This document shows positions 22,473-55,786 of a DNA stretch of 64,000 nucleotides, piece after piece. A model generated the notes under the pieces. That model had not been told where the DNA came from. It did no database searches and saw only the letters and a program-made list of their open reading frames with translations. Made by a program: the position numbers and the translations under genes. Position 1 is the first letter of the stretch. Every line of letters starts with the position of its first letter. This DNA is from Coffea arabica (Eukaryota > Streptophyta > Magnoliopsida > Gentianales > Rubiaceae), in assembly GCF_036785885.1 (NCBI RefSeq), contig NC_092320.1, forward strand, positions 13,145,557 to 13,209,556. The letters run 5' to 3'.

Positions 22473-22783
22473 AACTTTAACCATTAAATTTGGGTTAAAG
22501 AACTAGGGTAAGTAAAAGGGAGGATAGCAGGGATGGGATAGGCTTAGCCTCTTATTGGCCAAAGATGACCCCTACTAAAATAGTCTAAATCTTACTACTA
22601 TATTGGGCAAAGATAACCGATGGTCTATAACCCATACATCGATACAGATGATCTACAAGTAGTGATAGAGTATTATTTAAAATAATTATTATAGATGTGA
22701 TGTATGTGAAATAAAAAATAATTGAAAATATAAAAAGGTGAATTGAGAAATGTGTTTATGATGCAAGCGAAATATTATGGATT

Positions 22784-23565: not shown

Positions 23566-23689
23566 GACCCAAATATTATTTGGTATAATTTGACAATCCA
23601 AACACACTCCTATAGATTATCTACGATGATCTACAAGTAGTGACATAGATGATCTACAAGTGCCGAGCAAATATTTAAGTCTCGATCCC

Positions 23690-29384: not shown

Positions 29385-32300
29385 ATGAGTCGAGCAATTT
29401 TCAAATCGACGTTGTTAGTAGGCATCAGCTGCTCCACTCAGCTGAGATTCACTATTAACGGTGCCAGTTTCCGAGCATGTCGAAAATCTCCCTCTTCTTC
29501 TTCATCTTCTAGGGTTTCTTCAATGGCCACTTCCGAACGTTCAGATGCTGCTGCTGCTTCTTCTCCTTCTTCTTCATCCCCTGCCTCTCGTTCCTCTGCC
29601 TCCGCTATCGATTTTCTCACTCTCTGCCACCGCCTCAAGGTAATTGCGATCATCTGTACCTTTCGCCTGTTTTTTTTTCTGCTCCTTTTTTTTTTGTTTC
29701 ATTTGGATGCATTATTTACGCTTCACACATTTCATATCAAAGCGGGTTGAATTGCGTTTGATATGCCAGTGCATTGTTCAAAATATCTTGGAAATTTAGT
29801 ATTTTGGGGAGATAAAGTGTATTTCAAGGTGCAAGGAGATATGCTTGCCTCCAGAACTTTGGTTTGTTATTGAAACGAAAAGGATTAAGTAGTAGTGTTT
29901 TGAATAGGGCCAGTATTATGTTTTTTTCCGTTGGTCTGTTGCATCCCATGCTTTTTGAAGTTTATAACTGTGATGGAAGTGTACTGATGCTTAGACGACA
30001 AAGAGAGCTGGATGGGTAAAGAAAGGGGTGGAGAATCCAGAATCAATTGCTGATCACATGTATCGGATGGGAGTAATGGCTCTAATTGCTGCTGATATTC
30101 CTGGTGTCAATCGAGACAAGTCGGTTATTTGTCATGTTTTTTTTTTTTTTTTTATAAAAATTTTCGACTTTATTCAGGCTTGAATACGAGAAATCATTTA
30201 AAAGTTTAAAGTTTTGTTGTTATGCAGGTGCATAAAAATGGCGATTGTGCATGATATTGCTGAAGGTAAGAATGAATTTTAGCAACTCAGATTAATATTT
30301 TCTGATCGATTATCTATTTAGTAATTCTAAAATGAGTAAAAGTTTGTAATACAATCCAGTATGGCTTTGAGTGAGTTAATGTTGCTTTCTCAATAGTATG
30401 AAATTCTCAATCTACTTAGTGAAGTGGCGGAGCAACTTTTAGCAGTACTATGTTTGCATATGTACGTGTGAACTAATGTCTGTTTTGTACTTTGATGATT
30501 AACATCTTGCATTTGTTTCTCTTTGTAAATTATGGACAGAATCCAAGCAATAATATCTTTTTGGAGGCATTCTAAGTATTGTCACCTTTTTGGTGCCTTT
30601 GTAATGGCATGTCATTTTAGAAACCTTAATTGCTCTTGTTTTTCTATTCCTACCTATTTGAGGTTAGAGAAGGTTTTTTCTGTATATGGTTGAAGATCCA
30701 ATATTATACTTCAATTAATTACTGAAGATGTATACGTTTATGATTCAACTTTAAGACTATCAACTTCAATTTTGCAGCCACTTATTTCGGCTTATCATGC
30801 ATAATCAAGAAATCAAACTACGAAATCAGAATTGAACTACAACATTGTATCATAATACATCTCTACTTGATCACTCGAATTGAAAAATAAACGAGCTACT
30901 CTATTGGGATGCTGACTTGTACAATATGCGTTATCAGTTTGGATTTTTGTGCCTAGTTATTGAATTAACTATGCCCTCATTTACATTCCTACTGTGCTAG
31001 AATAGCATCTTGATGTTCTTTAGGTAAGCTCAAGTGGTTAAAATGACCTAGTCATCTATTCGGTACAAGGAAAACATATAGCTATATGCAGTAGCAGGCA
31101 TCAATAGATTAGAGTTATTTTTTGTTCTAAGTTATATAACAACAATAATATCCACATAGTAAAGTGATAAGAATTAGCCACATAAATTATCAATAAATAA
31201 AACAAGAGGATGTAAAGAACCGTATGTGCTCTATAACCCATTAAAGTACCATTATCAATTTGTTTTCTTGCAAATAGAAAAACTCCCAAGTAAACTAAAC
31301 TCCCTAAAATAGACTTATAATAATCAATTTTTTTATTCAAAATGGTTATTAAATTACTCGTTAATATACAATTCTATTGAATTTCTACCAATTATCAGGG
31401 ACCAGACAAAATGTTTAACAACCCAATACCTTAAATGTATAATTTACTTTGGTCAGTGGGGCCACATGGATAAATTAGTGGCCTAAAAATAAATTTTTTT
31501 AAAAAATTATATGCCTCATACATAGCTCAGCCACGAGCTAGATAAATGAACTATTAGATCATAGGTGTTTCTGTCATGTTATGTTGCCATATTCTGAGTA
31601 TATTTTTCATTTTGCACCTCTTATCTGCAAGCCGTGGACCTTATTTATTTCCTCCAATAGCTATTGTTGGTGACATCACACCTTCAGATGGGATTTCTAA
31701 GCTTGAAAAGAGTCAGAGGGAGCAAGAGGCGCTGGAGCACATGTGCAAATTACTTGGTGGAGGCCCACAAGGTATCTTGTTCTGCCTCGCTCTCCTTCCC
31801 TTCCTGTTTGCAGTGTATTTGCGTGTAAAGACTCAAAAGCATGTCAAACTCATTTCTTGCTTTATGATTTTACTCATTGCAGCTAAGGAGATAGCTGATT
31901 TGTGGACTGAATATGAAGAAAATACTTCATTAGAAGCTAAGGTGGTTAAGGACTTGGACAAGGTAAGACAAGATTTCATTGAGAGTAGGAAGAATCTAGG
32001 ATCTTCAATGATTTTGATAATTGTTAAATGGATTCTACCTCATTTTGCATTTACCCGTGATTTCTTGCACCGTCATTATCTTCTATCTGTCTCCCCCTCC
32101 CCCCCACAAACTGTCTTTGCATGGTTGTACATCCTTCACATATGTAACCCATGGACAGTAGCAAGGCCATCTGATCACTGTTCTTTTATTCAGGTGGAAA
32201 TGATTCTTCAAGCCTTGGAGTATGAAAATGGTAAGCCTTGTATGCTTGTATCTATAAAGTACTTGGTCGCTTAGCTATAGCAGAATTTTAATAGCTCAAT

Positions 32301-34552
32301 ATTATATTTATTGTTCTTTTTAATTTTAACATTGTCCTTTGAGTGTTTATAAGAATGCAAATATTGCTTATTCTGGGTGATCTTTCAGGCGTGTAAAAGT
32401 AACTACTTGAATCTTGGTACTTTTCATCTCCTTTCAGTTAGTCCCCAATGCTCCATCTTGAATTTGTTGTATCAAGTTCTGGACTGCATGAAATTAGGTA
32501 ATTGTTAAAAAAAAAAACACAAAATAATAATAACAAGAGAAGTTGGAGATGGTATGAGGATGATTTAGCAATCTCATTCCTTCATTGTAGACAACAAAAG
32601 TTTAATTTGAGGACTTGAGATAGGAAATACACATTTATCCTTCAAAATTGAACAATTGCATGATATGCAGCACCACAGTGCATTGAAAATTTAATGTTTT
32701 TCTCTAAGTTGAGCCTACATAACGATAAAAGTTCACATCCTGAAAGCCAAAGCACTTATTCTTTTCTCCTTTCCTTTTCCAATAAATTAATGATGTTTTA
32801 TGGGGCCGGAATAACCACCATGCTGACTCATATCCTGCATTAAAATATATTGTATTTTGTGATTAGGCTTCAAGGTCTGGCACAGAGCTGTCTTCTTCTT
32901 CGTCTTCCTCTCTCAGTTTATTTTTTCAAGAGTTCTCCTCAAGAAATGATTTTGCATATCTGGTTAGGAGAAAAGCGATTAAGCCTCCCACACAAATTTA
33001 ATTTGGGCAGCTGCAATTTGAAAGTAGAAAATGAAAGTCCTTAGGCTGCTTGCTCTTGATCTTGTAGCAAAATACTCTCGACTCTTCTGTTTTTGTTGTT
33101 GAAGGTTTTCTGTTTTATTTGTCCTACATCTTTTTTCTCTTCAATTTATCATTAATTGCCAAATTCCTTGAAATGTCCTTATATTTACCTTTTTCTATTT
33201 CATAAATCTGCCTAGTTTCGAAATATTCTGACAATCTTTTGAATAAAAGGTAATTTAGGCAGGCAGAGACCTAAAAAAAGTGGGGTGCAGCTTATTAGCT
33301 GTACCATCTTTTACACCAAAAACATGATGAGCCTGTGATGAATGCTTCCTTTCTTAACATCATATGTTTTCTATGCTTTTGATGCCTTTTCTTAATTCCT
33401 TGATGTGGATGGATTGAATAGTGGATGGCATCTAAATTGAATTATTTGTGTTGGTTGTGTGGCAGGGAATTGGAGTTTGATTTTGTGTCTGTTAACATTA
33501 TGGAGTAGGAAACCAAATCTGAAGAACTTTTCCATACAAAAATGTTTGATTTATTTATCTAGAAATGGGGGTAGGTAGTAACTAATGCCCGAGGATTATA
33601 TGTTAAGGTTCAAAAGTGGATGAGATTATGAATTTGATCCAATCTGAACTGTAGAACTGCTTGTACGTATTGCTGTCTTGGCTGGTAAGGGGTTCAAAGG
33701 AGATTATTCGTTTGGTTTTCACTAAAAGATATTAGAGTTAATAGATTCTGAAGGCCTATACTGAATTTGTGATAGAATGAGCATGGCTTAGCTGCTGCGA
33801 AAGATGCTGAAGCTTGACCGCGAGTTTGGTAGCGTTTGTTGAACTCAATGTTCAGGCTAGGCTTAATTCTTAAATGTGGTTGTGTTGCTGCTTTTTCCTA
33901 CGTTCTAATGTTGTCTGGAATAAGTAGGTTTTGCTCTGGAGTTGAGTTTCCAGTATGAAGCATTTTGTAATTGTATTTGCTTGTAATTTCATCTTAATCT
34001 GCTTACCCTGGATTGTGCTATCTAATGCATGTCTTCATGTTTGGAGAAACTTGTATAGAAACTGAAAAGAGATTCTTGTATTATGCAGAGCAAGGGAAGG
34101 ATTTGGACGAGTTTTTCCAGTCAACAGCAGGTATGTTGTATTGGCTCATTCAAATAACTTTGGTTCCAATTCTTGTGATATTTGTTCCATTTGGATACTG
34201 ATATTTTACTCACTAAAGTTTTTACTGGAAGAACAGGATGCATTTTCTATGGTTTGCATTTTGTTGCTGAATTTCTGTTTTCCCTCAATATATTGTCAGT
34301 AATTGTTTTAGACTGATCGCATTTCCATGTAGTTTATAAACATGAAATCTCTAGTTTGTTGGAGGTTCTTGGCATTTTTCTCCAAATTTAAATGCCTCAC
34401 TTTCTCGAGTTTCAGTAGTGTACATTGGAAGAACTATAGAGCGTGAGGAACAATAGTTAATTTGTCTGCTGTTCTTTCTCGCAGGGAAGTTCCAAACGAA
34501 CATTGGTAAAGCTTGGGCTTCGGAAATTGCATCAAGAAGAAGGAACCATTGA
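29385..34552 (+). CDS. HDDC2: HD-domain phosphohydrolase, HDDC2/YfbR-like 5'-deoxynucleotidase (8 exons)
   Basis: Exons, joined by canonical GT-AG introns: 29385-29639, 29995-30119, 30228-30265, 31661-31771, 31883-31962, 32194-32230, 34089-34130, 34485-34552. All junction phases agree and give 251 residues. Family members remove the 5' phosphate from deoxynucleoside monophosphates with a divalent metal. The HD metal site is visible: H106 (in ESIADHMYRM), H135-D136 (in AIVHDIAE) and D182 (in EIADLWTEYE). GDITP follows the HD pair, as is usual. Residues 1-47 are Ser/Arg-rich and could be an organelle transit peptide; a second in-frame ATG at 29523 (MATSERSD) would give a cytosolic 205-residue form. 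The last exon is short (22 complete codons plus a split one, ending SRRRNH) and is the parent of the tandem array at 41.8-52.5 kb. Intron 6 (32231-34088) is long and featureless. Confidence 0.92.
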
Positions 34553-34790
34553 CACATTAAATTTTTCTTGTATACTGTCACAATCTCCTATTACTTTCAA
34601 AAAACTAATTCTAATCAAGGCAGGCTGACGCAGGCTTTTAAGGTCCTCTGCATCAGTAATGTTACTCAGCGAGATAATAGCACTTGGCTGAGTAAACACA
34701 GAACTTGGTTTTCTTGTTATTGCTTCCAGACTGACCCGATGTATCGCTTAGGATGGCCAATGTAGCCAAAGGCTCTTGTTTGTGCAGTTA
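34553..34790 (+). other. 3' UTR region of the HD-domain gene
   Basis: The sequence after the TGA (TTTTTCTTGTATACTGTCAC, then CTATTACTTTCAAAAAACTA, then AAGGCAGGCTGA, then CTGCATCAGTAATG) recurs in diverged form at about 52489-52720 after the last unit of the tandem array. That repetition marks how far the duplicated gene tail extended. Confidence 0.6.
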
Positions 34791-37410: not shown

Positions 37411-37413
37411 CCA

Positions 37414-38151: not shown

Positions 38152-38626
38152 TCTCGAAAACATCCAAAAATTTTCATCACATTAGCTTTGTGATGATGGA
38201 GATATATTCATTGGTTAGGAGTCAATTTTCTCTACATTTATTCCACACCGTTTTCACTCTCAAAATCCTAGAAGTTCAAAAGAATTTGGCTCCTCTCTAT
38301 CTTCTCCTCTCCGCCTGATTGATTTAAGGTATGTAATGAAATGGTCTACAATTTCTAGGATTGTTTGTGTGAAATTTCCCTCCCTCTTTATAAGTTGGAC
38401 ATCTAATCAGTTGCCTGAAAATGCATTCTGCATTTTTCTGTATTGAATTGTTCTAAAATAATCCGAACAATGCTAACAAAATTGTAGACATAATTTGAGG
38501 AAGCTTGAGTCGTGTTTAATAGCGTTGTTCTAAGAAATTATTTCAGAAGTTGAAATGTTTTCCAGAAATTAATCGAATTTTCTTCTTGTAAACAAGAAAG
38601 ACCAGAACCAGCGAAAGTTGTATATA

Positions 38627-39250
38627 GAACTGTAAACGAGCCGAATCGAATCGAATATCTCATGTTTGAACTCTGTTCGTTAAGCGATTCGAACAATATT
38701 CGTGTTCGTTCGTTAATTTTCGAACTCCAAACATGTGTTCGTGTTTGGCTCGTTAAGCAAAATTCATATTCGAATTCGAGTTCGTGTTCGTGTTCGGCTT
38801 ATTTAACATAAACGAGTCGTTCGTGAACATGCTCGAAATGCTCGAATCCAAATTATTTTAAACCTTAAATATGCCATATAAATCATTAATCATTCTAAAA
38901 AACAATTAAAGCACTAAGTGACTATATAGCTAACATTAATATAAAAACAACAAATAAAACAAAGCAATTTGCCATCCAAATATAAAAGTCCAGCCATAAA
39001 ATTAACCCTAAAATTTGTTAAATGATAATTATGTCCATGTTCGCGATCGTTCACTAAAACTCGCGAATATGCTCGTGTTCGCGAACGTTCATTAAAACTT
39101 GCGAACACGCTTGTGTTCGCTCAATTATTAATCGAACAAAAAAATTCGTTCAAACTCGGTTCGTTTAAGGTTTCGGACGAGCTTTTCAAGAACACGAATG
39201 AGTCGAAACGAACTGAACTACCGAACAGCTTGGTTCGTTTAACAGCTTTA
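38627..39250. mobile_element. non-autonomous Mutator-like element with 10-bp target duplication
   Basis: GTTGTATATA flanks the element at 38617-38626 and 39251-39260. The ends read GAACTGTAAACGAGCCGAA and, reverse-complemented, TAAAGCTGTTAAACGAACC, imperfect inverted repeats. Subterminal zones are dense in GTTCGTGTTCG and GAACACG motifs. The flanking length suits Mutator-like transposition. A diverged relative (CTGTAAATGAGTCGAGTC) is seen near 55077-55200. Confidence 0.65.
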
Positions 39251-39426
39251 GTTGTATATATCCAGCAGAGAGGAGAAAAGAGAATAGAGAGGAAGAATGA
39301 GAGAAAGTGAGCTACTAGGAAAAGTCTACTGTGAGCTTTGAGTGTACTTTCCAAACTAGGAGCACTTGGTACTTATAGGCGTAAAAAAGAATATATTGGA
39401 GAAGCAAATCTAGGCCGTTAGAAGAT

Positions 39427-40050
39427 AAGGGATAAAACAAACTTTCTGAAACAAAAAGAGTTTGTGCCTGATCTTATTCAGATGGAAAGGGTCAAATTTA
39501 ATTCATGGTTTCAAATTGAATTCAAAAAGATAGAAGCAAAACTAGACCAGACCGTGCTTAACTCGTGCGCAGGGGAGGGGCAAAGGGATAAAACAAACGT
39601 TCTGAAACAAAAAGAACCTGATCTTTTCCAGATGGAAAGGGTCAAATTTAATTCTTGGTTTCACGGTAAGGTAAGATAGAAGCAAATCTAGACCGGACCG
39701 TGCTTAACTCACGTGAAGGGAGGAGGGGACAAAGGGATAAAACAAACTTTCTGAAACAAAAAGAACATTTGTGCTGAGAGCAGATCCACTGTCCAATTTT
39801 TTGTCCAATGTGAAACTACGTCTGCTGATGTAAAAAGAAGTATAAGGCAGCCAAACAGCCACCTATTTTTAGTTGCCACATCAACAGATGTAATAAGTGA
39901 AACTACGTAGTTTTACACTGGACAGGAAATTGGACACAAAAAATTGGACAGAGGATCTGCTCTCATTTGTGCTTGATCTTATCTAGATGGAAAAAATCAA
40001 ATTTAATTCTCGGTGACCGGATCGTGCTTAACTCACGCGTAGGGAGGCGG
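39427..40050. repeat. three-copy tandem repeat of about 150 bp, third copy split by a MITE
   Basis: Units start at 39427, 39583 and 39732 with AAGGGATAAAACAAAC. They share CTGAAACAAAAAGA, GATGGAAAGGGTCAAATTTA and CCGTGCTTAACTC in order, with spacings of 156 and 149 bp. The third unit continues after the inserted MITE (39776-39964) with GATCTTATCTAGATGG and CGTGCTTAACTCACGCG. No coding frame is shared among the copies. Confidence 0.75.
39776..39964. mobile_element. 189-bp MITE with 9-bp target duplication
   Basis: Terminal inverted repeats GAGAGCAGATCCACTGTCCA and GAGAGCAGATCCTCTGTCCA (right end, reverse-complemented) flank a short AT-rich interior with CTACGT repeats. ATTTGTGCT is duplicated at 39767-39775 and 39965-39973. 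Nine-base duplications point to a Mutator-like origin. It interrupts the third unit of the surrounding tandem repeat. Confidence 0.8.
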
Positions 40051-40955
40051 GGTAAATCCATCAATTTGCACTGAATAGGCATAATTTGACTTTCCTCTCA
40101 TGCATACGAACCCACATTAATTATCAACTTAACCAAGTCCAAATAGGAAATTAAGCATTAAAAAGTGATTGAAAATCTCTTTAGTTTTCTAACGTGCACA
40201 AAACCTTTTGAAATACTCAACTATTTACAACATGGTCAACAAGCGCCCATGTCTAATTATTAATCATATTCTGAACTGCCGTCTTCTTGGATCCCTTTGT
40301 TTCCAAACCTTATTCCACTTCTTGTCCCTGTTTATCTGTTGTCCATCTTAAGTTCATAAGCAGACTTGTTAGAGTAGTGGCCTCTGGCTTCATGCTTGCA
40401 GATAGGCGAATCTTCATTGTACCCGTCTCATCTCACCCGAAGGTAGTTTTCCAGTGGCCCAAGTTTCCATCCTCACTCTGCTAACCTGTTGTCTTTCACT
40501 CGTCTCCTCTCCTCTATTTCTGGTATTGCTTTGTGGATTCTCCAACTAGTGGGCGGTCTACCGTCCAGCAATCGACTCTCCAATCTCCATTTAGTCCCTT
40601 TTGCTAAAATTGTGCCCCTTGCCTTAATAATCGACGTGTGTGACTCTCCAACTTTTTCTTGGAATTTAGATCAACACTTTGTTGCTTTTGTTTACTGTTC
40701 AGCATTTTGGCCCACAAATCATCCTGCTGCTTAATTATTCTCAAACCCAGTTTAGCTAGCAAAGTTTTGTTATGCATCACCTCTGATGATCTTGCAAGAT
40801 GAACTGATAGGAAATTATGTTATGTTCTATATTTTTGTGTTAATGGTATAATCCAGACAAAGATTATTTGTATTATGAAATTAGAACTGATTGGTTTCCA
40901 TTAGTTAACTTCAGATTGCCGTTACAACTAGAATGCAATTATGGTATAGGAAAAT

Positions 40956-41085
40956 GAAGTAATTTGGGATACGTAAGATTTCAATAATTGTGAATAAGGA
41001 AGTAATTTGGAATACGTAAGATTTCAATAATTGTGAATAAGGAAGTAATTTGGCATATGTAAGATTTTAATAATTGTGATTTGAA
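40956..41085. repeat. three-copy 43-bp tandem repeat
   Basis: Units beginning GAAGTAATTTGG at 40956, 40999 and 41042 contain TACGTAAGATTTCAATAATT (diverged in the third). No gene function is apparent. The interval 40051-40955 has a few short frames with no recognisable domain. Confidence 0.75.
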
Positions 41086-41331
41086 AAAGATCTTACTATA
41101 GTTATATATGTAATAATCTTGATAGAAAGCATAATCATTTTTAAAAAAAATCATTAAGATAAAATTAATTATTTTTTAAAGTCATTTCAAAATTAGAGAT
41201 AATTTTTAAACAAATAATATAATATGATTAGGATTTAATATAGGTAAAGTCCAAATGACCCGTAACCTGTTAATTCGCATTAATTAGGCATGCTACGTAG
41301 GTGTGATAAACAAATTTGATTAAAATAGTTA

Positions 41332-41333
<2 letters not shown>

Positions 41334-41386
<53 letters not shown>
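41334..41386. repeat. AT dinucleotide microsatellite left of the satellite array
   Basis: An uninterrupted AT run of about 53 bp. A second AT run (52634-52661) lies just past the right end of the tandem array, inside the copied 3' UTR. Confidence 0.9.
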
Positions 41387-41389
<3 letters not shown>

Positions 41390-42169
41390 TTCTTATATAA
41401 TTGAAACCACTCGGTACTTGTTTAAATTCAATAGAGATGAAAAAAATATTTAATAATTAAAAAATTCAAAATTTTATATAAAAAAAAAGAATGAGGAGTT
41501 AGAAGCATTATAGCTTGACCATGCTAAAAACTTTTTCTACAATTTATATACATATATAGATAATTGATCTCAAACTCCCATCTTTTATTCTCTCAAAAAT
41601 CCCATTTACGCCGAAGAAACAGAGAAGAAGATCCCCAATTCCACGAGCTTCGGTTGGAAGTGGAATCTTGAGTTAATTCTTTTCATCAAGTTTCATCGTT
41701 TTCTTAGAAGAAAGAGGATGTAGATGAGGCACGTTTCTCTTTTGAATTTTCTTTATTTATTTTTTTTAGTAGATAAGATTACATTAACAAACCAAAAGTA
41801 TTTATAGGATAAGCCTATGATCAAATGGTCATGCCGTCAGCTGGAGAATTACATAGGTACTTTTCTAAGTTAATACATTTTCTTTCTTGTAGGTAAGTTC
41901 CAAACAAAACAATGGTAAAGCTTGGGCTTTTGAAATTGTATCAAGAAGGAGAAATTGGCAGTTTTGACTCATTCTTGTATAGGGCCAAAAGTTAAACCAT
42001 TTTCTTTCTTATAGGGAAGTTCATTTTTTTGCTTTTTTTGGAAGTAGATAATATTACATTGTCATTAACAAACCAAAAGTATTTACAGGACAAGCGTCTG
42101 CTCAAATCCTCATGGGATGCGGTTGAGAATTAAATAGGTCGCTTTCTAAATTAATACACTTCTTTCTTG

Positions 42170-44640
42170 CTGGAAGTTCCAAACAAAATATTGGTAAAGC
42201 TTGGGCTTCTGAAATTGCATCAAGAAGGAGAAATTGGCAGTTTTGACTCTTTCTTGTGTAGGGCCAAAAGTTAAACCATTTTCTTTCTTATAGGGAAGTT
42301 CATTTTTTTGCTTTTTTTGGAAGTAGATAATATTACATTGTCATTAACAAACCAAAAGTATTTACAGGACAAGCGTTTGCTCAAATCCTCATGGGATGCG
42401 CTTGAGAATTAAATAGGTCGCTTTCTAAGTTAGTACACTTCTATCTTGCTGGAAGTTCAAAACCAAACATTGGTAAAGCTTGGGCTTCTGAAATTGTATC
42501 AAGAAGGAGAAATTGGCAGTTTTGACTCTTTCTTGTGTAGGGCCAAAAGTTAAACCATTTTCTTTCTTATAGGAAAGTTCATTTGTTTTGCTTTTTTTGG
42601 AAGTAGATAATATTACATTGTCATTAACAAACCAAAAGTATTTACAGGACAAGCGTCTGCTCAAATCCTCAGGGGATGCGCTTGAGAATTAAATAGGTCG
42701 CTTTCTAAGTTAATACGCTTCTTTCTTGCCGGAAGTTCCAAACAAAACATTGGTAAAGCTTGGGCTTCTGAAATTGCATCAAGAAGGAGAAATTGGCAGT
42801 TTTGACTCATTCTTGTGTAGGGTCAAAAGTTAAACCATTTTCCTTCTTATAGGGAAGTTCATTTTTTTGCTTTTTTTGGAAGTAGATAATATTACATTGT
42901 CATTAACAAACCAAAAGTATTTACAGGACAAGTGTCTGCTCAAATTCTCGTGGGATGCGCTTGAGAATTAAATAGATCTCTTTCTAAGTTAATACACTTC
43001 TTTCTTGCTGGAAGTTCCAAACCAAACATTGGTGAAGCTTGGGCTTCTGAAATTGCATCAAGAAGGAGAAATTGGCAGTTTTGACTCACTCTTGTATAAG
43101 GGCAAAAGTTAAACCATTTTCTTTCTTATAAGGAAGTTCATTTTTTTTGCTTTTTTTGGAAGTAGATAATATTACATTGTCATTAACAAACCAAAAGTAT
43201 TTACAGGACAAACGTCTGCTCAAATCCTCGTGGGATGCGCTTGAGAATTAAATAGGTCGCTTTCTAAGTTAATACACTTCTTTCTTGCTAGAAGTTCCAA
43301 ACAAAACATTGGTAAAGCTTGGGCTTCTGAAATTGCATCAAGAAGGAGAAATTGGCAGTTTTGACTCTTTCTTGTGTAGGGCCAAAAGTTAAACCATATT
43401 CTTTCTTATAGGGAAGTTCATTTTTTTGCTTTTTTTTGGAAGTTGATAATATTACATTGTCATTAAAAAATCAAAAGTATTTACAGGACAAACGTCTGCT
43501 CAAATCCTCATGGGATGCGGTTGAGAATTAAATAGGTCGCTTTCTAAGTTAATACACTTCTTTCTTGCTAGAAGTTCCAAACAAAACATTGGTAAAGCTT
43601 GGGCTTCTGAAATTGCATCAAGAAGGAGAAATTGGCAGTTTTGACTCTTTCTTGTGTAGGGCCAAAAGTTAAACCATTTTCTTTCTTATAGGGAAGTTCA
43701 TTTTTTTGCTTTTTTTTGGAAGTTGATAATATTACATTGTCATTAAAAAATCAAAAGTATTTACAGGACAAGCGTCTGCTCAAATCCTCATGGGATGCGG
43801 TTGAAAATTAAATAGGTCGCTTTCTAAGTTAATACACTTCTTTCTTGCTGGAAGTTCCAAACCAAACATTGGTAAGGCTTGGCCTTCTGAAATTGCATCA
43901 AGAAGGAGAAATTGGCAGTTTTGACTCTTTCTTGTGTAGGGCCAAAAGTTAAACCATTTTCTTTCTTATAGGGAAGTTCATTTTTTTGCTTTTTTTTGGA
44001 AGTTGATAATATTACATTGTCAATAAAAAATCAAAAGTATTTACAGGGCAAGCGTCTGCTCAAATCCTCATGGGATGCGGTTGAGAATTAAATAGGTCGC
44101 TTTCTAAGTTAATACACTTCTTTCTTGCTGGAAGTTCCAAACCAAACATTGGTAAGGCTTGGCCTTCTGAAATTGCATCAAGAAGGAGAAATTGGCAGTT
44201 TTGACTCTTTCTTGTGTAGGGCCAAAAGTTAAACCATTTTCTTTCTTATAGGGAAGTTCATTTTTTTGCTTTTTTTTGGAAGTTGATAATATTACATTGT
44301 CATTAAAAAATCAAAAGTATTTACAGGACAAGCGTCTGCTCAAATCCTCATGGGATGCGGTTGAGAATTAAATAGGTCGCTTTCTAAGTTAATACACTTC
44401 TTTCTTCCTGGAAGTTCCAAACCAAACATTGGTAAGGCTTGGGCTTCTGAAATTGCATCAAGAAGGAGAAATTGATAGTTTTGACTCTTTCTTGTGTTGG
44501 GCCAAAAGTTAAACCATTTCCTTTCTTATAGGGAAGTTCATTTTTTTGCTTTTTTTTGGAAGTTGATAATATTACATTGTCATTAAAAAATCAAAAGTAT
44601 TTACAGGACAAGCGTCTGCTCAAATCCTCATGGGATGCGG
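42170..44640 (+). repeat. nine-unit higher-order block, left copy
   Basis: Units 2-10 carry private variants in a fixed order (AAAATATTGG; GCGTTTGCTC; CTATCTTGCTGG with GTTCAAAACC; CTCAGGGGATG; GGTGAAGC; AACCATATTC; GGCCTTCTGA twice; GTGTTGGGCC). The same order recurs exactly 3,636 bp to the right. Boundaries are accurate to within about one unit. Confidence 0.85.
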
Positions 44641-45805
44641 TTGAGAATTAAATAGGTCGCTTTCTAAGTTAATACACTTCTTTCTTGCTGGAAGTTCCAA
44701 ACCAAACATTGGTAAGGCTTGGCCTTCTGAAATTGCATTAAGAAGGAGAAATTGGCAGTTTTGACACTTTTTTGTATTGGGCCAAAAGTTAAACCATTTT
44801 CTTTCTTATAGGGAAGTTCATTTTTTTGCTTTTTTTGGAAGTAGATAATATTACATTGTTATTAACAAACCAAAAGTATTTACAGGACAAGCGTCTGCTC
44901 AAATCCTCGTGGGATGCGCTTGAGAATTAAATAGGTCGCTTTCTAAGTTAATACACTTCTTTCTTGCTAGAAGTTCCAAACAAAACATTGGTAAAGGCTT
45001 GGCCTTCTGAAATTGCATCAAGAAGGAGAAATTGGCAGTTTTGACTCTTTCTTGTGTAGGGCCAAAAGTTAAACCATTTTCTTTCTTATAGGGAAGTTCA
45101 TTTTTTTGCTTTTTTTTGGAAGTTGATAATATTACATTGTCATTAAAAAATCAAAAGTATTTACAGGACAAGCGTCTGCTCAAATCCTCATGGGATGCGG
45201 TTGAGAATTAAATAGGTCGCTTTCTAAGTTAATACACTTCTTTCTTGCTGGAAGTTCCAAACCAAACATTGGTAAGGCTTGGCCTTCTGAAATTGCATCA
45301 AGAAGGAGAAATTGGCAGTTTTGACTCTTTCTTGTGTAGGGCCAAAAGTTAAACCATTTTCTTTCTTATAGGGAAGTTCATTTTTTTGCTTTTTTTTGGA
45401 AGTTGATAATATTACATTGTCATTAAAAAATCAAAAGTATTTACAGGACAAGCGTCTGCTCAAATCCTCGTGGGATGCGCTTGAGAATTAAATAGATCTC
45501 TTTCTAAGTTAATACACTTCTTTCTTGCTGGAAGTTCCAAACCAAACATTGGTGAAGCTTGGGCTTCTGAAATTGCATCAAGAAGGAGAAATTGGCAGTT
45601 TTGACTCTTTCTTGTGTAGGGCCAAAAGTTAAACCATTTTCTTTCTTATAGGGAAGTTCATTTTTTTGCTTTTTTTGGAAGTAGATAATATTACATTGTC
45701 ATTAACAAACCAAAAGTATTTACAGGACAAGCGTCTGCTCAAATCCTCATGGGATGTGCTTGAGAATTAAATAGGTCGCTTTCTAAATTAATACACTTCT
45801 TCTTG

Positions 45806-48276
45806 CTGGAAGTTCCAAACAAAATATTGGTAAAGCTTGGGCTTCTGAAATTGCATCAAGAAGGAGAAATTGGCAGTTTTGACTCTTTCTTGTGTAGGGC
45901 CAAAAGTTAAACCATTTTCTTTCTTATAGGGAAGTTCATTTTTTTGCTTTTTTTGGAAGTAGATAATATTACATTGTCATTAACAAACCAAAAGTATTTA
46001 CAGGACAAGCGTTTGCTCAAATCCTCATGGGATGCGCTTGAGAATTAAATAGGTCGCTTTCTAAGTTAGTACACTTCTATCTTGCTGGAAGTTCAAAACC
46101 AAACATTGGTAAAGCTTGGGCTTCTGAAATTGTATCAAGAAGGAGAAATTGGCAGTTTTGACTCTTTCTTGTGTAGGGCCAAAAGTTAAACCATTTTCTT
46201 TCTTATAGGAAAGTTCATTTGTTTTGCTTTTTTTGGAAGTAGATAATATTACATTGTCATTAACAAACCAAAAGTATTTACAGGACAAGCGTCTGCTCAA
46301 ATCCTCAGGGGATGCGCTTGAGAATTAAATAGGTCGCTTTCTAAGTTAATACGCTTCTTTCTTGCCGGAAGTTCCAAACAAAACATTGGTAAAGCTTGGG
46401 CTTCTGAAATTGCATCAAGAAGGAGAAATTGGCAGTTTTGACTCATTCTTGTGTAGGGTCAAAAGTTAAACCATTTTCCTTCTTATAGGGAAGTTCATTT
46501 TTTTGCTTTTTTTGGAAGTAGATAATATTACATTGTCATTAACAAACCAAAAGTATTTACAGGACAAGTGTCTGCTCAAATTCTCGTGGGATGCGCTTGA
46601 GAATTAAATAGATCTCTTTCTAAGTTAATACACTTCTTTCTTGCTGGAAGTTCCAAACCAAACATTGGTGAAGCTTCGGCTTCTGAAATTGCATCAAGAA
46701 GGAGAAATTGGCAGTTTTGACTCACTCTTGTATAAGGGCAAAAGTTAAACCATTTTCTTTCTTATAAGGAAGTTCATTTTTTTTGCTTTTTTTGGAAGTA
46801 GATAATATTACATTGTCATTAACAAACCAAAAGTATTTACAGGACAAACGTCTGCTCAAATTCTCGTGGGATGCGCTTGAGAATTAAATAGGTCGCTTTC
46901 TAAGTTAATACACTTCTTTCTTGCTAGAAGTTCCAAACAAAACATTGGTAAAGCTTGGGCTTCTGAAATTGCATCAAGAAGGAGAAATTGGCAGTTTTGA
47001 CTCTTTCTTGTGTAGGGCCAAAAGTTAAACCATATTCTTTCTTATAGGGAAGTTCATTTTTTTGCTTTTTTTTGGAAGTTGATAATATTACATTGTCATT
47101 AAAAAATCAAAAGTATTTACAGGACAAACGTCTGCTCAAATCCTCATGGGTTGCGGTTGAGAATTAAATAGGTCGCTTTCTAAGTTAATACACTTCTTTC
47201 TTGCTAGAAGTTCCAAACAAAACATAGGTAAAGCTTGGGCTTCTGAAATTGCATCAAGAAGGAGAAATTGGCAGTTTTGACTCTTTCTTGTGTAGGGCCA
47301 AAAGTTAAACCATTTTCTTTCTTATAGGGAAGTTCATTTTTTTGCTTTTTTTTGGAAGTTGATAATATTACATTGTCATTAAAAAATCAAAAGTATTTAC
47401 AGGACAAGCGTCTGCTCAAATCCTCATGGGATGCGGTTGAGAATTAAATAGGTCGCTTTCTAAGTTAATACACTTCTTTCTTGCTGGAAGTTCCAAACCA
47501 AACATTGGTAAGGCTTGGCCTTCTGAAATTGCATCAAGAAGGAGAAATTGGCAGTTTTGACTCTTTCTTGTGTAGGGCCAAAAGTTAAACCATTTTCTTT
47601 CTTATAGGGAAGTTCATTTTTTTGCTTTTTTTTGGAAGTTGATAATATTACATTGTCATTAAAAAATCAAAAGTATTTACAGGACAAGCGTCTGCTCAAA
47701 TCCTCATGGGATGCGGTTGAGAATTAAATAGGTCGCTTTCTAAGTTAATACACTTCTTTGTTGCTGGAAGTTCCAAACCAAACATTGGTAAGGCTTGGCC
47801 TTCTGAAATTGCATCAAGAAGGAGAAATTGGCAGTTTTGACTCTTTCTTGTGTAGGGCCAAAAGTTAAACCATTTTCTTTCTTATAGGGAAGTTCATTTT
47901 TTTGCTTTTTTTTGGAAGTTGATAATATTACATTGTCATTAAAAAATCAGAAGTATTTACAGGACAAGCGTCTGCTCAAATCCTCATGGGATGCGGTTGA
48001 GAATTAAATAGGTCGCTTTCTAAGTTAATACACTTCTTTCTTGCTGGAAGTTCCAAACCAAACATTGGTAAGGCTTGGGCTTCTGAAATTGCATCAAGAA
48101 GGAGAAATTGACAGTTTTGACTCTTTCTTGTGTTGGGCCAAAAGTTAAACCATTTCCTTTCTTATAGGGAAGTTCATTTTTTTGCTTTTTTTTGGAAGTT
48201 GATAATATTACATTGTCTTTAAAAAATCAAAAGTATTTACAGGACAAGCGTCTGCTCAAATCCTCATGGGATGCGG
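45806..48276 (+). repeat. nine-unit higher-order block, right copy
   Basis: Units 15-23 repeat units 2-10 with identical spacing at a 3,636-bp offset. Only scattered differences are seen, for example TTCTCG for TCCTCG near 46860, GGGTTGCGG for GGGATGCGG near 47149, and ACATAGG for ACATTGG near 47224. The near identity implies a recent block duplication. Confidence 0.85.
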
Positions 48277-49079
48277 TTGAGAATTAAATAGGTCGCTTTC
48301 TAAGTTAATACACTTCTTTCTTGCTGGAAGTTCCAAACCAAACATTGGTAAGGCTTGGCCTTCTGAAATTGCATCAAGAAGGAGAAATTGGCAGTTTTGA
48401 CTCTTTCTTGTGTAGGGTCAAAAGTTAAACCATTTTCTTTCTTATAGGGAAGTTCATTTTTTTGCTTTTTTTTGGAAGTTGATAATATTACATTGTCATT
48501 AAAAAATCAAAAGTATTTACAGGACAAGCGTCTGCTCAAATCCTCGTGGGATGCGGTTGAGGATTAAATAGGTCGCTTTCTAAGTTAATACACTTCTTTC
48601 TTGCTGGAAGTTCCAAACCAAACATTGGTAAGGCTTGGGCTTCTGAAATTGCATCAAGAAGGAGAAATTGACAGTTTTGACTCTTTCTTGTGTTGGGCCA
48701 AAAGTTAAACCATTTCTTTTCTTATAGGGAAGTTCATTTTTTTGCTTTTTTTTGGAAGTTGATAATATTACATTGTCATCAAAAAATCAAAAGTATTTAC
48801 AGGACAAGCGTCTGCTCAAATCCTCATGGGATGCGGTTGAGAATTAAATAGGTCGCTTTCTAAGTTAATACATTTCTTTCTTGCTGGAAGTTCCAAACCA
48901 AACATTGGTAAGGCTTGGCCTTCTGAAATTGCATTAAGAAGGAGAAATTGGCAGTTTTGACACTTTTTTGTATAGGGCCAAAAGTTAAACCATTTTCTTT
49001 CATATAGGGAAGTTCATTTTTTTGCTTTTTTTGGAAGTAGATAATATTACATTGTCATTAACAAACCAAAAGTATTTAC

Positions 49080-50750
49080 AGGACAAGCGTCTGCTCAAAT
49101 CCTCGTGGGATGCACTTGAGAATTATATAGGTCGCTTTCTAAATTAATACACTTCTTTCTTCCTGGAAGTTCCAAACCAAACATTGGTAAAGCTTGGGCT
49201 TCTGAAATTGCATCAAGAAGGAGAAATTGGCAGTTTTGACTCATTCTTGTATAGGGCCAAAAGTTAAACCATTTTCTTTCTTATAAGGAAGTTCATTTTT
49301 TTACTTTTTTTGGAAGTAGATAATATTACATTGTCATTAACAAACCAAAAGTATTTACAGGACAAGCGTCTGCTCAAATCCTCGTGGGATGCACTTGAGA
49401 ATTATATAGGTCGCTTTCTAAATTAATACACTTCTTTCTTGCTGGAAGTTCCAAACCAAACATTGGTAAGGCTTGGGTTTCTGAAATTGCATCAAGAAGG
49501 AGAAATTGACAGTTTTGACTCTTTCTTGTGTTGGGCCAAAAGTTAAACCATTTTATTTCTTATAGGGATGTTCATTTTTTTGCTTTTTTTTGGAAGTTGA
49601 TAATATTACATTGTCATTAAAAAATCAAAAGTATTTACAGGACAAGCGTCTGCTCAAATCCTCATGGGATGCGGTTGAGAATTAAATAGGTCGCTTTCTA
49701 AGTTAATACACTTCTTTCTTGCTGGAAGTTCCAAACCAAACATTGGTAAGGCTTGGCCTTCTGAAATTGCATTAAGGAGGAGAAATTGGCCGTTTTGACA
49801 CTTTTTTGTATAGGGCCAAAAGTTAAACCATTTTCTTTCTTATAGGGAAGTTCATTTTTTTGCTTTTTTTGGAAGTAGATAATATTACATTGTCATTAAC
49901 AAACCAAAAGTATTTACAGGACAAGCGTCTACTCAAATCCTCGTGGGATGCACTTGAGAATTATATAGGTCGTTTTCTAAATTAATACACTTTTTTGTTG
50001 CTGGAAGTTCCAAACCAAACATTGGTAAAGCTTGGGCTTCTGAAATTGCATCAAGAAGGAGAAAGTGGCAGTTTTGACTCATTCTTGTATAGGGCCAAAA
50101 GTTAAACCATTTTCTTTCTTATAAGGAAGTTCATTTTTTTACTTTTTTTGGAAGTAGATAATATTACATTGTCATTAACAAACCAAAAGTATTTACAGGA
50201 CAAGCGTCTGCTCAAATCCTCGTGGGATGCACTTGAGAATTATATAGGTCGCTTTCTAAATTAATACACTTCTTTCTTGCTGGAAGTTCCAAACCAAACA
50301 TTGGTAAGGCTTGGGCTTCTGAAATTGCATCAGGAAGGAGAAATTGACAGTTTTGACTCTTTCTTGTGTTGGGCCAAAAGTTAAACCATTTTCTTTCTTA
50401 TAGGGAAGTTCATTTTTTTGCTTTTTTTTGGAAGTTGATAATATTACATTGTCATTAAAAAATCAAAAGTATTTACAGGACAAGCGTCTGCTCAAATCCT
50501 CATGGGATGCGGTTGAGAATTAAATAGGTCGCTTTCTAAGTTAATACACTTCTTTCTTGCTGGAAGTTCCAAACCAAACATTGGTAAGGCTTGGCCTTCT
50601 GAAATTGCATCAAGAAGGAGAAATTGGCAGTTTTGACACTTTTTTGTATAGGGCCAAAAGTTAAACCATTTTCTTTCTTAAAGGGAAGTTCATTTTTTTG
50701 CTTTTTTTGGAAGTAGATAATATTACATTGTCATTAACAAACCAAAAGTA
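49080..50750 (+). repeat. three-unit higher-order repeat, two copies at 838 bp
   Basis: Units 27-28-29 and 30-31-32 (cores at 49193, 49472, 49752 and 50031, 50310, 50590) show the same order of variants: GCACTTGAGAATTATATAGG with TTCTTGTATAG; GTGTTGGGCC with the GTTGATAAT type; GGCCTT with GACACTTTTTTG. Each step is 838 bp. Confidence 0.75.
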
Positions 50751-52439
50751 TTTACAGGACAAGCGTCTGCTCAAATCCTCGTGGGATGCACTTGAGAATT
50801 ATATAGGTCGCTTTCTAAATTAATACACTTCTTTCTTGCTGGAAGTTCCAAACCAAACATTGGTAAGGCTTGGGCTTCTGAAATTGCATCAAGAAGGAGA
50901 AATTGACAGTTTTGACTCTTTCTTGTGTTGGGCCAAAAGTTAAACCATTTTCTTTCTTATAGGGAAGTTCATTTTTTTGCTTTTTTTGGAAGTAGATAAT
51001 ATTACATTGTCATTAACAAATCAAAAGTATTTACAGGACAAGCGTCTGCTCAAATCCTCGTGGGATGCACTTGAGAATTATATAGGTCGTTTTCTAAATT
51101 AATACACTTCTTTCTTGCTGGAAGTTCCAAACCAAACATTGGTAAAGCTTGGGCTTCTGAAATTGCATCAAGAAGGAGAAATTGGCAGTTTTGACTCATT
51201 CTTGTATAGGGCCAAAAGTTAAACCATTTTCTTTCTTATAAGGAAGTTCATTTTTTTACTTTTTTTGGAAGTAGATAATATTACATTGTCATTAACAAAC
51301 CAAAAGTATTTACAGGACAAGCGTCTGCTCAAATTCTCAGGGGATGCGCTTGAGAATTAAATAGGTCACTTTCTAAGTTAATACACTTCTTTCTTGCTAG
51401 AAGTTCCAAACCAAACATTGGTAAAGCTTGGGCTTCTGAAATTGCATCTAGAAGGAGAAATTGGCAGTTTTGACTCATTCTTGTATAGGGCCAAAAGTTA
51501 AACCATCTTCTTTCTTATAAGGAAGTTCATTTTTTTTCTTTTTTTGGAAGTAGATAATATTACATTGTCATTAACAAACCAAAAGTATTTACAGGACAAG
51601 CGTCTGCTCAAATCCTCAGGGGATGCGCTTGAGAATTAAATAGGGCCAAAAGTTATACCATTTTCTTCTTGTATAGGGCCAAAAGTTAAACCATTTGCTT
51701 TCTTAAGGGGAAGTTCATTTTTTTGCTTTTTTTGGAAGTAGATAATATTACATTGTCATTAACAAACCAAAAGTATTTACAGGACAAGCGTCTGCTCAAA
51801 TCCTCAGGGGATGCGCTTGAGAATTAAATAGGTCGCTTTCTATGTTAATACACTTCTTTCTTGCTGGAAGTTCCAAACAAAACATTGGTAAGGCTTGGGC
51901 TTCTGAAATTGCATCAAGAAGGAGAAATTGACAGTTTTGACTCTTTCTTGTGTTGGGCCAAAAGTTAAACCATTTTCTTTCTTATAGGGAAGTTAATTTT
52001 TTGCTTTTTTTGGAAGTAGATAATCTTATATTGTCATTAACAAACCAAAAGTATTTACAGGACAAGCGTCTGCTCAAATCCTCGTGGGATGCATTTGAGA
52101 ATTAAATAGGTCGCTTTCTAAGTTAATACACTTCTTTCTTGCTGGAAGTTCCAAACCAAACATTGGTAAAGCTTGGGCTTCTGAAATTGCATCAAGAAGG
52201 AGAAATTGGCAGTTTTGACTCATTCTTGTATAGGGCCAAAAGTTAAACCATTTTCTTTCTTGTAGGGAAGTTCATTTTTTTTTCTTTTTTTTGGAAATAG
52301 ATAGTATTACATTGTCATTAACAAACCAAAAGTATTTAGAGGACAAGCGTCTGCTCAAATCCTCATGGGATGCGCTTGAGAATTAAATAGGTCGCTTTCT
52401 AAGTTAATACACTTCTTTCTTGCTGGAAGTTGCAAACCA

Positions 52440-52720
52440 AACATTGGTAAAGCTTGGGCTTGAGAAATTACTTCAAGAAGGAGACATTGACACTTTTTGA
52501 CATTTTCTTGTATAGTGTCTCAACTCTCAGCCTCCTATGATTTTCAAAGAACTAGTTCTAACTTCTAACCAAGGCAGGCTGAATATATAGGCTTCTTAAA
52601 CTCTTGTGCATCAGAAATAGCACTCAGCAGAAGAATATATATATATATATATATATATATTTTACTTGGGTCAGTAAAAACAGAACTCATATTCCTGTTC
52701 TTTTTCTGGAGTTACGCCAT
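52440..52720 (+). pseudogene. HDDC2: terminal copy of the HD-domain gene tail (last exon plus 3' UTR)
   Basis: After the last array core the homology to the parent gene runs on: TCTTGTATAGTGTC, CCTCCTATGATTTTCAAAGAACTAGTTCTAAC, CCAAGGCAGGCTGA, GTGCATCAGAAATAG and ACTTGGGTCAGTAAAAACAGAAC correspond in order to 34568-34715. An AT run (52634-52661) has expanded inside it. The exon part carries the extra base seen in all units, and no upstream exons are present, so this is a truncated, non-coding copy. Confidence 0.85.
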
Positions 52721-52736
52721 CATCACTTAGTTATGT

Positions 52737-52835
52737 ACTCTGTCCCTTCCACAACCCATCATCTTGTGGTACGTAAGTTATGGACTCTGTCCCTTCCGCA
52801 ACCATTTTGAGGCCATCCGCTTGTGGTACATAAGT
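52737..52835 (+). repeat. two-copy direct repeat of about 47 bp
   Basis: ACTCTGTCCCTTCC(A/G)CAACC and CTTGTGGTACRTAAGTT occur twice in order (about 52737-52780 and 52784-52835), the second copy slightly longer. Confidence 0.6.
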
Positions 52836-52839
52836 TGTA

Positions 52840-55350
52840 TCCAGATGGGTCAAGATCTTCAAAATTTGCTTGACATAATAATGCCTGAATCTTTACAAGA
52901 AATGTGAGTCCATAGTGTCATCACGCTACCTATCATAATTAGAATAGATAATAAACCTAACCAAAATCATTTGATGATTGCATGTGAATTGCTAGAAATA
53001 TGTGAAGCGTATAGCTAACGCAATCATAAAAGTTTCATAAGGGTATTGGAGCAAGCTACAATGAGACAAAAATCTTATCAAAACCAAGATTTTCTAAATC
53101 GTGGGATGAAAATTCCCATCCAGTATCTTACTTGTTCTAAAAAAGACTTCTTGATTCTGTTCATAAAAAAAATGGAAAGCTATCAAGAATTTTATTCTAT
53201 TTTATTATAAAACAAAAAAATAAATAAAGCGTTTCAAGACAATAAAGATCGAGAAAATTGACTCGAGAACAATTTTCATTACTAAGTTTTGTTGTCAAAT
53301 TTGGACCTAAACATTAAAGTAAGAAGTGATGGAAACAATGTAAACTGTGAATCCAAAAGATTTTGTTAAAAATGAATTTTAATGATTCACCGGTTGGGAT
53401 GGCAGAACAAATCAGAGATCAATTCATCTTTACCATTTCCTCCAAAACTCAGAAAGCCAAATTCTCCAAAGTTCAGCACCTACGGCTGAAGAAAGCCGGT
53501 CACGCAACCACAAAAGGTGCGTAGACACGAGGGAATGGCCTTAGAATTGGAAAATTTTGTTAGCTTGGGTGTTGGGTCTTGAAGGTTAAGGACTAAAATA
53601 GCATACATGAGTAGATGGATTTTGTTGTGACTTAAATTTTGGCGATCTATTTAACGTCATTTAGTTGCAGTTCTTCTGAAGGATGCTTACAATTAGCATA
53701 CACTTGGAAAAAAAAAATTCATCCACTTATACAAAGTTGGTTTTTTTTTGAATTTTGTATCTAGTAAATTTTATTTATTTGAAAAATTATCACACAATAT
53801 ATAAAGAAGAGTGTAGAACAAAGTTAAATAAACAAACTAAATGATAGAAACAGAAAAAGCAATATTGAGGTATTTAATTGGGGAAAAGAGTTTTTCTTTA
53901 AAATATAAATAAAATAGAATTTATTAGGTGCTTGGGCCGGCAAAAAAAGGAATATTGAAGTTTGTATTTGAGGAAAAAAGAGTTTTCCTTAAAAAAAAAG
54001 GAAATTTATTAGGTATTTGGGTGGGATCAAATTGAGTTTAACCCATTTTAGTCCTGCCCATATTGGTCCTGCGACTAATATGGAACTATTTTATTAGGCA
54101 TTTTCTGTTTTCTCTCAGAAAATTGTCATAACTTCGATTTTCTCTGTATTTTCGTGTTTTTATGGTGAATTTGGATCTACTGCAATGATATCACAAGTTA
54201 GAGAGTTAATCTTGAGCAGATTCTGACCAGTTAGAGAGTTAAAGCTCTCCACTGTTGTGTTTAGCAGGTTTACTCCGTCAAACGTTTCCCTTCAAGAGAG
54301 GAAAAGTGAAGGGTCAAAAGTTCATCTGAGAATCTTGATTGAATACTCTCTTCCAAAGCTCAGTTCTCAATTATTTCTCACCTTAGGAGCTGCTTATTTT
54401 CTCTTTTTCTGAAAAAAATTTGAAGGTCTTGATTTTGTACTTCTATTATGCGATGACTATGCATTTTGAGTTTTGCATAATTATAATTCAGTTCTGCAAT
54501 TGCTTCTCGTGTAAATCTGGCACTTCATTCTTCAAATACTATTTTTTTTTTCCAAAAGCCGCAAATTCTTCAAATACTATTTAAACCGTGGATTTACGTA
54601 TTTTTTACTCTGGAAATAAGTTTGGGAGTACACAACTGTATAACGTCCTTTACCAAAACTAGTCTATTGGGAGACATACAATTCTGGATATTTTTGAGAA
54701 ACATTCCGGAATACTGGGTTAATTCGTATTGCTTTATCGCGTGTGATTGTCACCGCACCCAGTAAGCTAGCAGACCTTTCTAGCATGCGTACAGGATCAA
54801 TTGCTTGTAGTAGGCCCATTCTGGGGAACGGAATGTCATGTGCTTAATTTGTTATAGCCTTTAAGAAGATGACTTCTTGTTTTCGATCTTTTCTTTCTTG
54901 AGGTGAACTGATCAACAAGTGCCGACTACACAAGGGAGGGTAACAAACACTGTACAAATTACAAATTGATTATCCAAAAAACAAAAACTCTTAATATGAC
55001 TATGATCCTACCTTTTATTATTCTATTCTATTATAATTATGTTATAAAATAAGAATTAGATAAGTCCAACTAAAACTGTAAATGAGTCGAGTCTGGTTGA
55101 GTTTTTATCTAGTCGATTCGAGTCTTGATTCAATTTTATCAAACTCGAACTCGAAATCAATCGACTCAATTTTAACAAGTTGAGTCAAGGTTGAGTTCGC
55201 GCCCATTGAGTTCAATTATCCCCTTCACCCCCATTGAAAGTGAAAGTGTTATGTTTTTCATTTCATCTATCCCAAAATGTACATGTCAGTTTCTAAATAT
55301 AGCAAACAAACACCCACCCACTTTCTCTTCCTATCCTTCAGTCACTTATT
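52840..55350. other. intergenic stretch, no supported gene
   Basis: AT-rich sequence. A diverged direct duplication of about 75 bp (AATATTGARGT ... TTTATTAGGTRYTTGGG) spans about 53861-53937 and 53952-54022. A short frame of 42 codons begins at 53399 but has no recognisable content. GAGTCGAGT-rich sequence at 55077-55200 resembles the ends of the Mutator-like element at 38.6 kb. Confidence 0.5.
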
Positions 55351-55358
55351 AATGGTAA

Positions 55359-55387
55359 CTAGGAGGTATAAAACGCGCGATGCGCGT
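55359..55387 (-). mobile_element. Helitron-like 3' terminus 1
   Basis: Read on the minus strand: a GC hairpin ACGCGC-ATC-GCGCGT (55373-55387), then TTTATACCTC and the terminal CTAG (55359-55362), followed by T. A hairpin about 10 nt before CTRR and insertion next to a T are the defining 3' features of Helitrons. The element body would extend to the right. The 5' TC end was not identified. Confidence 0.6.
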
Positions 55388-55786
55388 AGGTAATTAAAGA
55401 CAATATGCCCTGTCAAATATGTCAAATATGCGTTGGTAATAGTGCTTAGCATACCCAATTGAATGTAAAAAAAAGTTGAAATTATAAGTTTAATTACACT
55501 AATCATTGGCAGAGGAAAATGGAGTATGCAAAGCATACATTATATTAGAGTGTGGTATAATTGTAATTATATTCGAATTGATAAAAGAAGAATCCTTCAT
55601 TCAAAGGCTGGAAATTGGAACAAGCTTCAGTACAGCATACACTGATTATTTATACAAACATTTGACAGAACAGAGAAAGCAGGGAACAACAAAAGAATAA
55701 AAATTGATAGATGATATCTTTGTCCATTTAATAAATGTATAGATAACAAGATGAGGATCACTAAAAGGCTAGAAATTTGATCCTTT

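Follow-up and report, generated by a model that had tools for sequence, protein, structure and literature searches.

Satellite DNAs usually no longer show their own origin, and tandem arrays commonly display edge decay, with diverged outer units around a homogeneous centre. Among the closest described systems is a 2018 case, cited in a passage of PMC7004042, in which a segment of a single-copy gene was amplified in tandem into a satellite. In plants, satellites have also been derived from the tandem repeats of long terminal repeat (LTR) retrotransposons, where short local arrays expand into satellite-like arrays (passages of PMC7004042), and concerted evolution through unequal crossing-over and gene conversion has been described for tandem repeats more generally (passages of PMC5615363 and PMC10048060). 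Here, a window of 64,000 nucleotides of Coffea arabica (the whole stretch of DNA analysed, C11:13145557-13209556) is described that contains a 10.7-kb tandem array whose unit includes the last exon of a neighbouring HDDC2-type gene. The array resembles the 2018 case in the tandem amplification of a single-copy gene segment, and differs from it in that the exon tail appears to come from a partial gene copy, that the host is a plant and that there is one array of 10.7 kb. It shares with the LTR-derived satellites the expansion of a local array; in contrast to these, no retrotransposon was recognised in the coffee unit by a search made without a dedicated repeat library, and no dispersed copies were found. 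A homogeneous centre, diverged outer units and a block duplication are what it has in common with the cases of concerted evolution, whereas here a span of about 20 kb takes in the source gene, the partial copy and the right native edge, and an array-free homoeologue is available as well. The reading preferred here, to which a probability of roughly three in four is given, is that a pseudogene fragment gave rise to the array, a satellite confined to this locus, by way of a separate and older partial copy of the gene. The features on which the argument depends are the following.

29385..34552, + strand: intact HDDC2-type gene with an HD domain, eight exons in the model, translating to a 251-residue protein.
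34485..34552, + strand: exon 8, the last coding exon and the amplified one, with a cgcag acceptor and a TGA stop; each of the 38 array matches has its start at 34472 or 34485.
34553..34751, + strand: 3′ untranslated region (3′ UTR) of the gene and the start of the downstream DNA; from 34565 it aligns with the second copy located past the array.
41760..52505, + strand: tandem array of 39 units, mostly of 279-280 bp, with a GC content of 34.5%.

The preliminary description of this stretch had proposed an array of about 10.7 kb with about 38 direct units of 279-280 bp, and this is borne out by 39 units between 41760 and 52505. Tandem Repeats Finder reported a period of 280 with 35.3 copies and 95% matches at 41782-51644, with adjoining rows to 52515. 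Anchoring gave 39 unit starts, of which the intervals were 278-281 bp in 37 of 38 cases and 188 bp in the remaining one. The mean pairwise identity is 94.6% among the 37 units of 278-281 bp, a set that leaves out unit 39, which passes into unique DNA. The 34 units from 2 to 35 comprise 31 distinct sequences, with a mean substitution distance of 4.7% and a maximum of 8.2%; unit 3 is identical to unit 16, unit 4 to unit 17 and unit 13 to unit 21. The array thus has the many head-to-tail copies of one unit that characterise a satellite. The abundance and long arrays of satellites are not found, since pattern searches, which covered 1.198 Gb with up to 3 mismatches and would miss more diverged copies, returned this single 10.7-kb locus. 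The array is therefore satellite-like and not a classical abundant satellite. With regard to a heterochromatic location, the neighbourhood contains genes. No coding capacity was seen, as the 29 open frames listed with at least 100 codons all lie outside the array. No known RNA family was found in the window at the gathering score, and the unit had no match in collections of plasmid or viral contigs, neither of which is a plant collection, so that this result is little informative.

The kinship between the unit and the gene was assessed by aligning the unit to 34440-34720. The score was 136, against a mean of 43.9 and a maximum of 78 in 1000 dinucleotide shuffles, none of which reached 136; the unit-gene identity expected of a gene-derived array is thus significant, and the earlier claim of exon identity passed the shuffled-sequence test. 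The exon of the gene and that of the consensus unit are about 89% identical. Exon 8 is matched, in the same orientation, by 38 of the 39 units, as had been supposed, and unit 36 is without exon. Self-comparison of the window recovered the same 38 matches to the last-exon segment, starting at 34472 or 34485. Thirty of them end at 34545 with 84-92% identity (28 spanning 34472-34545 and 2 spanning 34485-34545), seven reach 34571 or 34583 with 79-82% identity and that of the last unit reaches 34670 with 74% identity; only 8 of the 38 pass the stop codon at 34552. The unit is made up of about 110 bp with no relation to the gene, the exon, which measures 63-75 bp depending on where its limits are set, a post-exon stretch that passes into 3′ UTR in unit 39, and a junction. 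In this junction the acceptor region is present a second time, as a copy of 34 columns (score 52 and 0/1000 shuffles as high for unit 1 against the consensus; score 33 and 7/1000 shuffles as high for the consensus against itself). Because of this second copy, the gene-related share is somewhat over one third of the unit; that a composite of exon tail and other sequence was amplified is upheld, and the estimate that two thirds of it are unrelated to the gene was slightly too high. The acceptor region that the units were said to carry is there in degraded form, with GCTGGA in 27 of 39 units where the gene reads CAGGGA. TAGG occurs at the acceptor of units 1 and 36, and so in unit 1 alone among those that bear the exon, and TAGA in six others. 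All 38 exon-bearing units carry a net frame-changing gap with respect to the gene exon, mostly one extra base, and therefore it was a piece of pseudogene that was amplified. Diversity is 0.042 in the exon and 0.046 in the rest of the unit, and the exon ranks 86 of 279 circular windows, which indicates that no added constraint is seen on the exon part.

The existence of a second copy of the 3′ end of the gene came from the analysis of the edges of the array, where four features are distinguished.

40954..41759, + strand: DNA flanking the array on the left, which the homoeologue lacks at the colinear position; no match to the gene was found.
41782..42062, + strand: unit 1, at the left edge, with the non-gene left part off consensus at 18 of 104 ungapped positions (17%), an array-like right part and a TAGG acceptor.
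52316..52505, + strand: unit 39, at the right edge, array-like in its left part, diverging from mid-exon onward and there gene-like, with the TGA kept.
52506..52730, + strand: 3′ UTR of the second, partial 3′-end copy, outside the array; it is on the homoeologue from 52548 onward.

The right flank at 52505-52730 aligns to the gene at 34565-34751 with a score of 137, when the maximum of the shuffles was 75 (0/500 as high), and 143 of 179 ungapped positions are identical. From 52413 onward, the alignment of the last unit to the gene is unbroken, up to 34670. Since gene-like sequence continues outside the right edge, the array is embedded in a second copy of the 3′ end of the gene, an incomplete one. 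Further to the right of the UTR of this copy no homology to the gene was found, 206 of 300 shuffles being as high. The right edge, then, runs into 3′ UTR-like DNA, and the left edge was traced to no gene sequence. It had been proposed that the array was born from the gene 7 kb upstream. The gene stands as the source one step removed, and the template was most likely the frame-broken partial copy. In the same line, the array might have been amplified directly from the last exon of the intact gene, if a fragment of it had been copied, fused to other DNA and inserted downstream. An exon that is about 89% identical in gene and consensus, the common orientation and the distance of 7 kb would all agree with such an origin, which is nevertheless unlikely, because the gene-like 3′ UTR continues outside the array and exists on the array-free homoeologue, and because a frame-changing gap in 38 of 38 exon-bearing units fits a separate older copy better.

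The remainder of the second copy was looked for with tblastn, using the 251-residue protein. In 294 kb of C11 the coding matches besides the gene itself were 38 array rows and a stray fragment, and in 50 kb of C12 the sole match was the homoeologous gene, so exons 1-7 of a second HDDC2 gene were found in neither stretch. The left flank was considered as further exons of such a gene, a candidate that was rejected, with no match by DNA alignment and none by tblastn. The exon pattern indicates two HDDC2-type genes in the genome, one on C11 and one on C12. Judging by sequence, the gene at 29385..34552 would be the ultimate source of the exon part of the unit. Databases name its protein 5′-deoxynucleotidase or HD domain-containing protein 2. 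The 251-residue protein is that of Coffea arabica P0001 except for a 9-residue gap; against C. canephora P0004 it has a shorter start and one differently spliced stretch and otherwise agrees, and several residues differ from C. eugenioides P0002. The relatives of the largest open stretch of the gene in the PDB, by sequence, are HD domain-containing protein YGL101W and HD domain-containing protein 2 (E of about 1e-7 to 1e-6).

Comparison with the homoeologue indicated that the second copy is old. C11 would be the canephora-derived and C12 the eugenioides-derived homoeologue. Around the array C12 is colinear with the window at 40441-40953 (85%) and at 52548-54106 (92%), and the interval between these stretches is occupied there by 1.57 kb of other DNA, in which lies an inverted repeat that we take to be of the type of miniature inverted-repeat transposable elements (MITEs). 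The array is not on C12, where the only significant match of the unit in 50 kb was the own exon of the gene. The second copy of the 3′ UTR is present there from the equivalent of 52548 onward and its exon is absent. Because the UTR part is on both homoeologues, the copy predates the split of the subgenomes, and the canephora-eugenioides split is given as 4-6 million years in a passage of PMC11018527. The homoeologous difference is 3.2-3.8% in three introns, 2.8% in exon 1, 5.5% and 7.2% in two flanks and 13.1% in one stretch, and the divergence between the gene and the UTR of the second copy amounts to 19% over 101 positions in one subgenome and to 21% over 144 positions in the other. It is more likely that C12 lost the array than that it never had it, because the left part of unit 1 is 17% off consensus, above any homoeologous stretch measured (2.8-13.1%). 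If rates were alike, the first doubling of the unit would be older than the split of the subgenomes.

The units themselves carry traces of the exchange that would have amplified them.

42063..44580, + strand: units 2-10, each differing by 0-1.1% from the unit 13 places further on (units 15-23).
45700..48216, + strand: units 15-23, the second copy of the block, pairing with units 2-10.
51569..51756, + strand: unit 36, of 188 bp, with an internal deletion that took out the exon.

Edge decay is evident at both ends. Unit 1 is off consensus by 7-33% over its first 120 columns from the left and by 0-7% further on, and unit 39 is its mirror image. Nine successive pairs of units at a lag of 13 differ by 0-1.1%. 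A tree built from the 38 units other than unit 36, with good support for 7 of its 32 inner branches, joins both members directly in six of these nine pairs. The diverged edges, the 13-unit block duplication and the deleted unit suggest unequal exchange, and the whole pattern suggests what unequal exchange with conversion would leave.

These observations can be brought together in the following order of events. The 3′ end of the HDDC2 gene (the last exon, a few intron bases and the 3′ UTR) would have been duplicated, before the canephora and eugenioides lineages separated, to a site some kilobases further downstream, with its orientation kept; the homology between both ends is observed and the direction of copying is the more conjectural part. 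The copy, lying beside DNA unrelated to the gene, may then have carried the frame-breaking extra base, which is present in the units and whose timing is a reconstruction. A small internal duplication and a deletion, to which the 34-column second copy of the acceptor region points, could have produced the composite 279-bp founder. Unequal exchange with conversion would have amplified and homogenised it to 39 units, including the recent duplication of the block at 13-unit spacing, as the pattern of the units suggests. Finally, the homoeologue would have lost the array. The array codes for nothing, is probably without function and is probably neutral.

Several observations weigh against this order of events. 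The left flank and the 112 bp of the unit upstream of the exon match neither intron 7 nor the rest of the gene (409/500, 206/500, 100/100 and 49/100 shuffles as high in the tests of the left flank or the upstream part against the gene), so the left junction, at which the exon lies beside the upstream part of the unit, is not accounted for by the gene. The post-exon part of the unit is linked to the 3′ UTR through unit 39 only; compared alone with the 3′ UTR of the gene, it is not significant (164/500 shuffles as high), and of the earlier claim that the units carry early 3′ UTR there stand only the 8 of 38 matches that pass the stop. The gap in the exon varies somewhat, with two extra bases in unit 12 and a further gap of 3 bases in eight units. 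Other routes, such as rolling-circle amplification with reinsertion, cannot be told apart from unequal exchange in this array. The age estimates come from short stretches (101-179 ungapped positions) under the assumption of equal neutral rates, and are weakened by the range of 2.8-13.1% in homoeologous divergence itself; likewise, the preference for loss of the array over gain comes from a comparison of the two homoeologues. With regard to the non-gene part of the unit, its identity with intron 7 of the HDDC2-type gene was tried and rejected (score 24, 409/500 shuffles as high); it might come from an intron elsewhere.

The distribution of the unit across the genome bears on whether a mobile element was involved. 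A 30-base pattern from the non-gene part, with up to 3 mismatches, had 38 genome matches, all 38 inside the array, with the diverged unit 1 missed, and for this part there was neither a second array nor dispersed copies in the 1.198 Gb. At this level of mismatch the satellite is thus confined to this locus in its own genome, a question that the preliminary description had raised. A 38-base exon pattern, again with up to 3 mismatches, also gave 38 matches, namely 35 in the array, the gene, its homoeologue at C12:11871913 and a fragment at C11:13226981. The 3′ UTR of the second copy had four genome matches, which are the window locus, C12:11876426 and both HDDC2-type genes. These results make it improbable that a transposable element (a Helitron, a foldback element or similar) had captured a gene fragment and that the array is its internal tandem repeat. 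Mobile elements are known sources of satellites, as with the Helentrons of oysters (PMC7492417) and the LTR retrotransposons of legumes (passages of PMC7004042), and several stretches neighbouring the array are absent from the homoeologue. Against this, the non-gene part has no other match at up to 3 mismatches, the right flank is common to the window and the homoeologue, and the similarity between left and right flanks (39500-41760 against 52500-56000) was no better than that of shuffles in either the direct or the inverted test, 49 of 50 being as high in both.

A solitary, inverted piece of the unit lies at C11:13226944-13227087. It is 144 bp long and 99% like the consensus, and is located about 29 kb to the right of the array and about 17.4 kb beyond the end of the window, in a stretch that C12 lacks at the colinear position. 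It is the sole match of the unit outside the array, besides the gene exon, in 294 kb of C11 (E up to 1e-4). As a more speculative view, the array might be the seed of a satellite that is still moving, a repeat of a pseudogene end dating from before the split, erased in one subgenome and turning over in the other, which sheds fragments such as this 144-bp piece and whose exon copies could feed small interfering RNAs (siRNAs) back on the parent gene; few of the chances are allotted to this view. Even less probable is a functional role in which small RNAs from the array act on the HDDC2 gene by way of the common exon. A 23-base stretch of the gene exon (AACATTGGTAAAGCTTGGGCTTC) is unchanged in 12 of the 39 units and satellite siRNAs have been reported for several plants (passages of PMC5615363), but the exon part is under no visible constraint, the gene looks intact and the siRNA role is hypothetical. 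That the array is an artefact of the assembly, as the identical units (3/16, 4/17 and 13/21) might suggest, can be dismissed almost entirely in view of the 31 distinct sequences among units 2-35, the graded edges and an assembly that appears to be the C. arabica high-fidelity (HiFi) one, for which DNA was cut to 20 kb, longer than the 10.7-kb array (passages of PMC11018527), although the exact number of units could still be off.

The preferred reading, a satellite made from a pseudogene fragment through the older partial copy, changes no principle, because the tandem amplification of a single-copy sequence and its homogenisation by unequal exchange are established ideas. The array can be regarded as a well preserved case of the beginnings of a satellite, with the source gene, the partial copy, the right native edge, the array and an array-free homoeologous locus all readable. 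As all these stages are readable and the two diploid parents of C. arabica have both been assembled (passages of PMC11018527), the order of events in the birth of a satellite is testable with existing data. Among the papers listed by literature searches, none is evidently about this array; HDDC2 was not among the terms used, so a report may exist.

Other observations concern the surroundings. On C12, a piece of HDDC2 intron 7 lies downstream at C12:11877984-11878187, 96% identical to that of its own gene over 177 bp and 93% to the window over 206, and adjoins a local duplication of 153 bp (90%). By its sequence, this piece would represent a second copying of the 3′ region of the HDDC2 gene. 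About 60 kb of C11, from 54106 of the window to about 49.8 kb past its end, have no equivalent on C12 at the colinear position. The alignment picks up again at C12 joined position 15335, in a C12 stretch of 2.1 kb that matches C11 four times in succession, three times over its whole length and once over part of it. To the left of the array, 3.5 kb at 36924-40440 are not on the homoeologue, and an inverted-repeat search of 36900-40460 found an inverted repeat at 39775-39965 with a short pair of 30-base arms, which is presumably MITE-like. At 22771-23577 there is a large imperfect palindrome of about 800 bp that is 90.6% identical to its own reverse complement. Finally, the neighbouring open frames at 3452-3889 and 6275-6829 encode small Gly/Ser-rich proteins with internal repeats.

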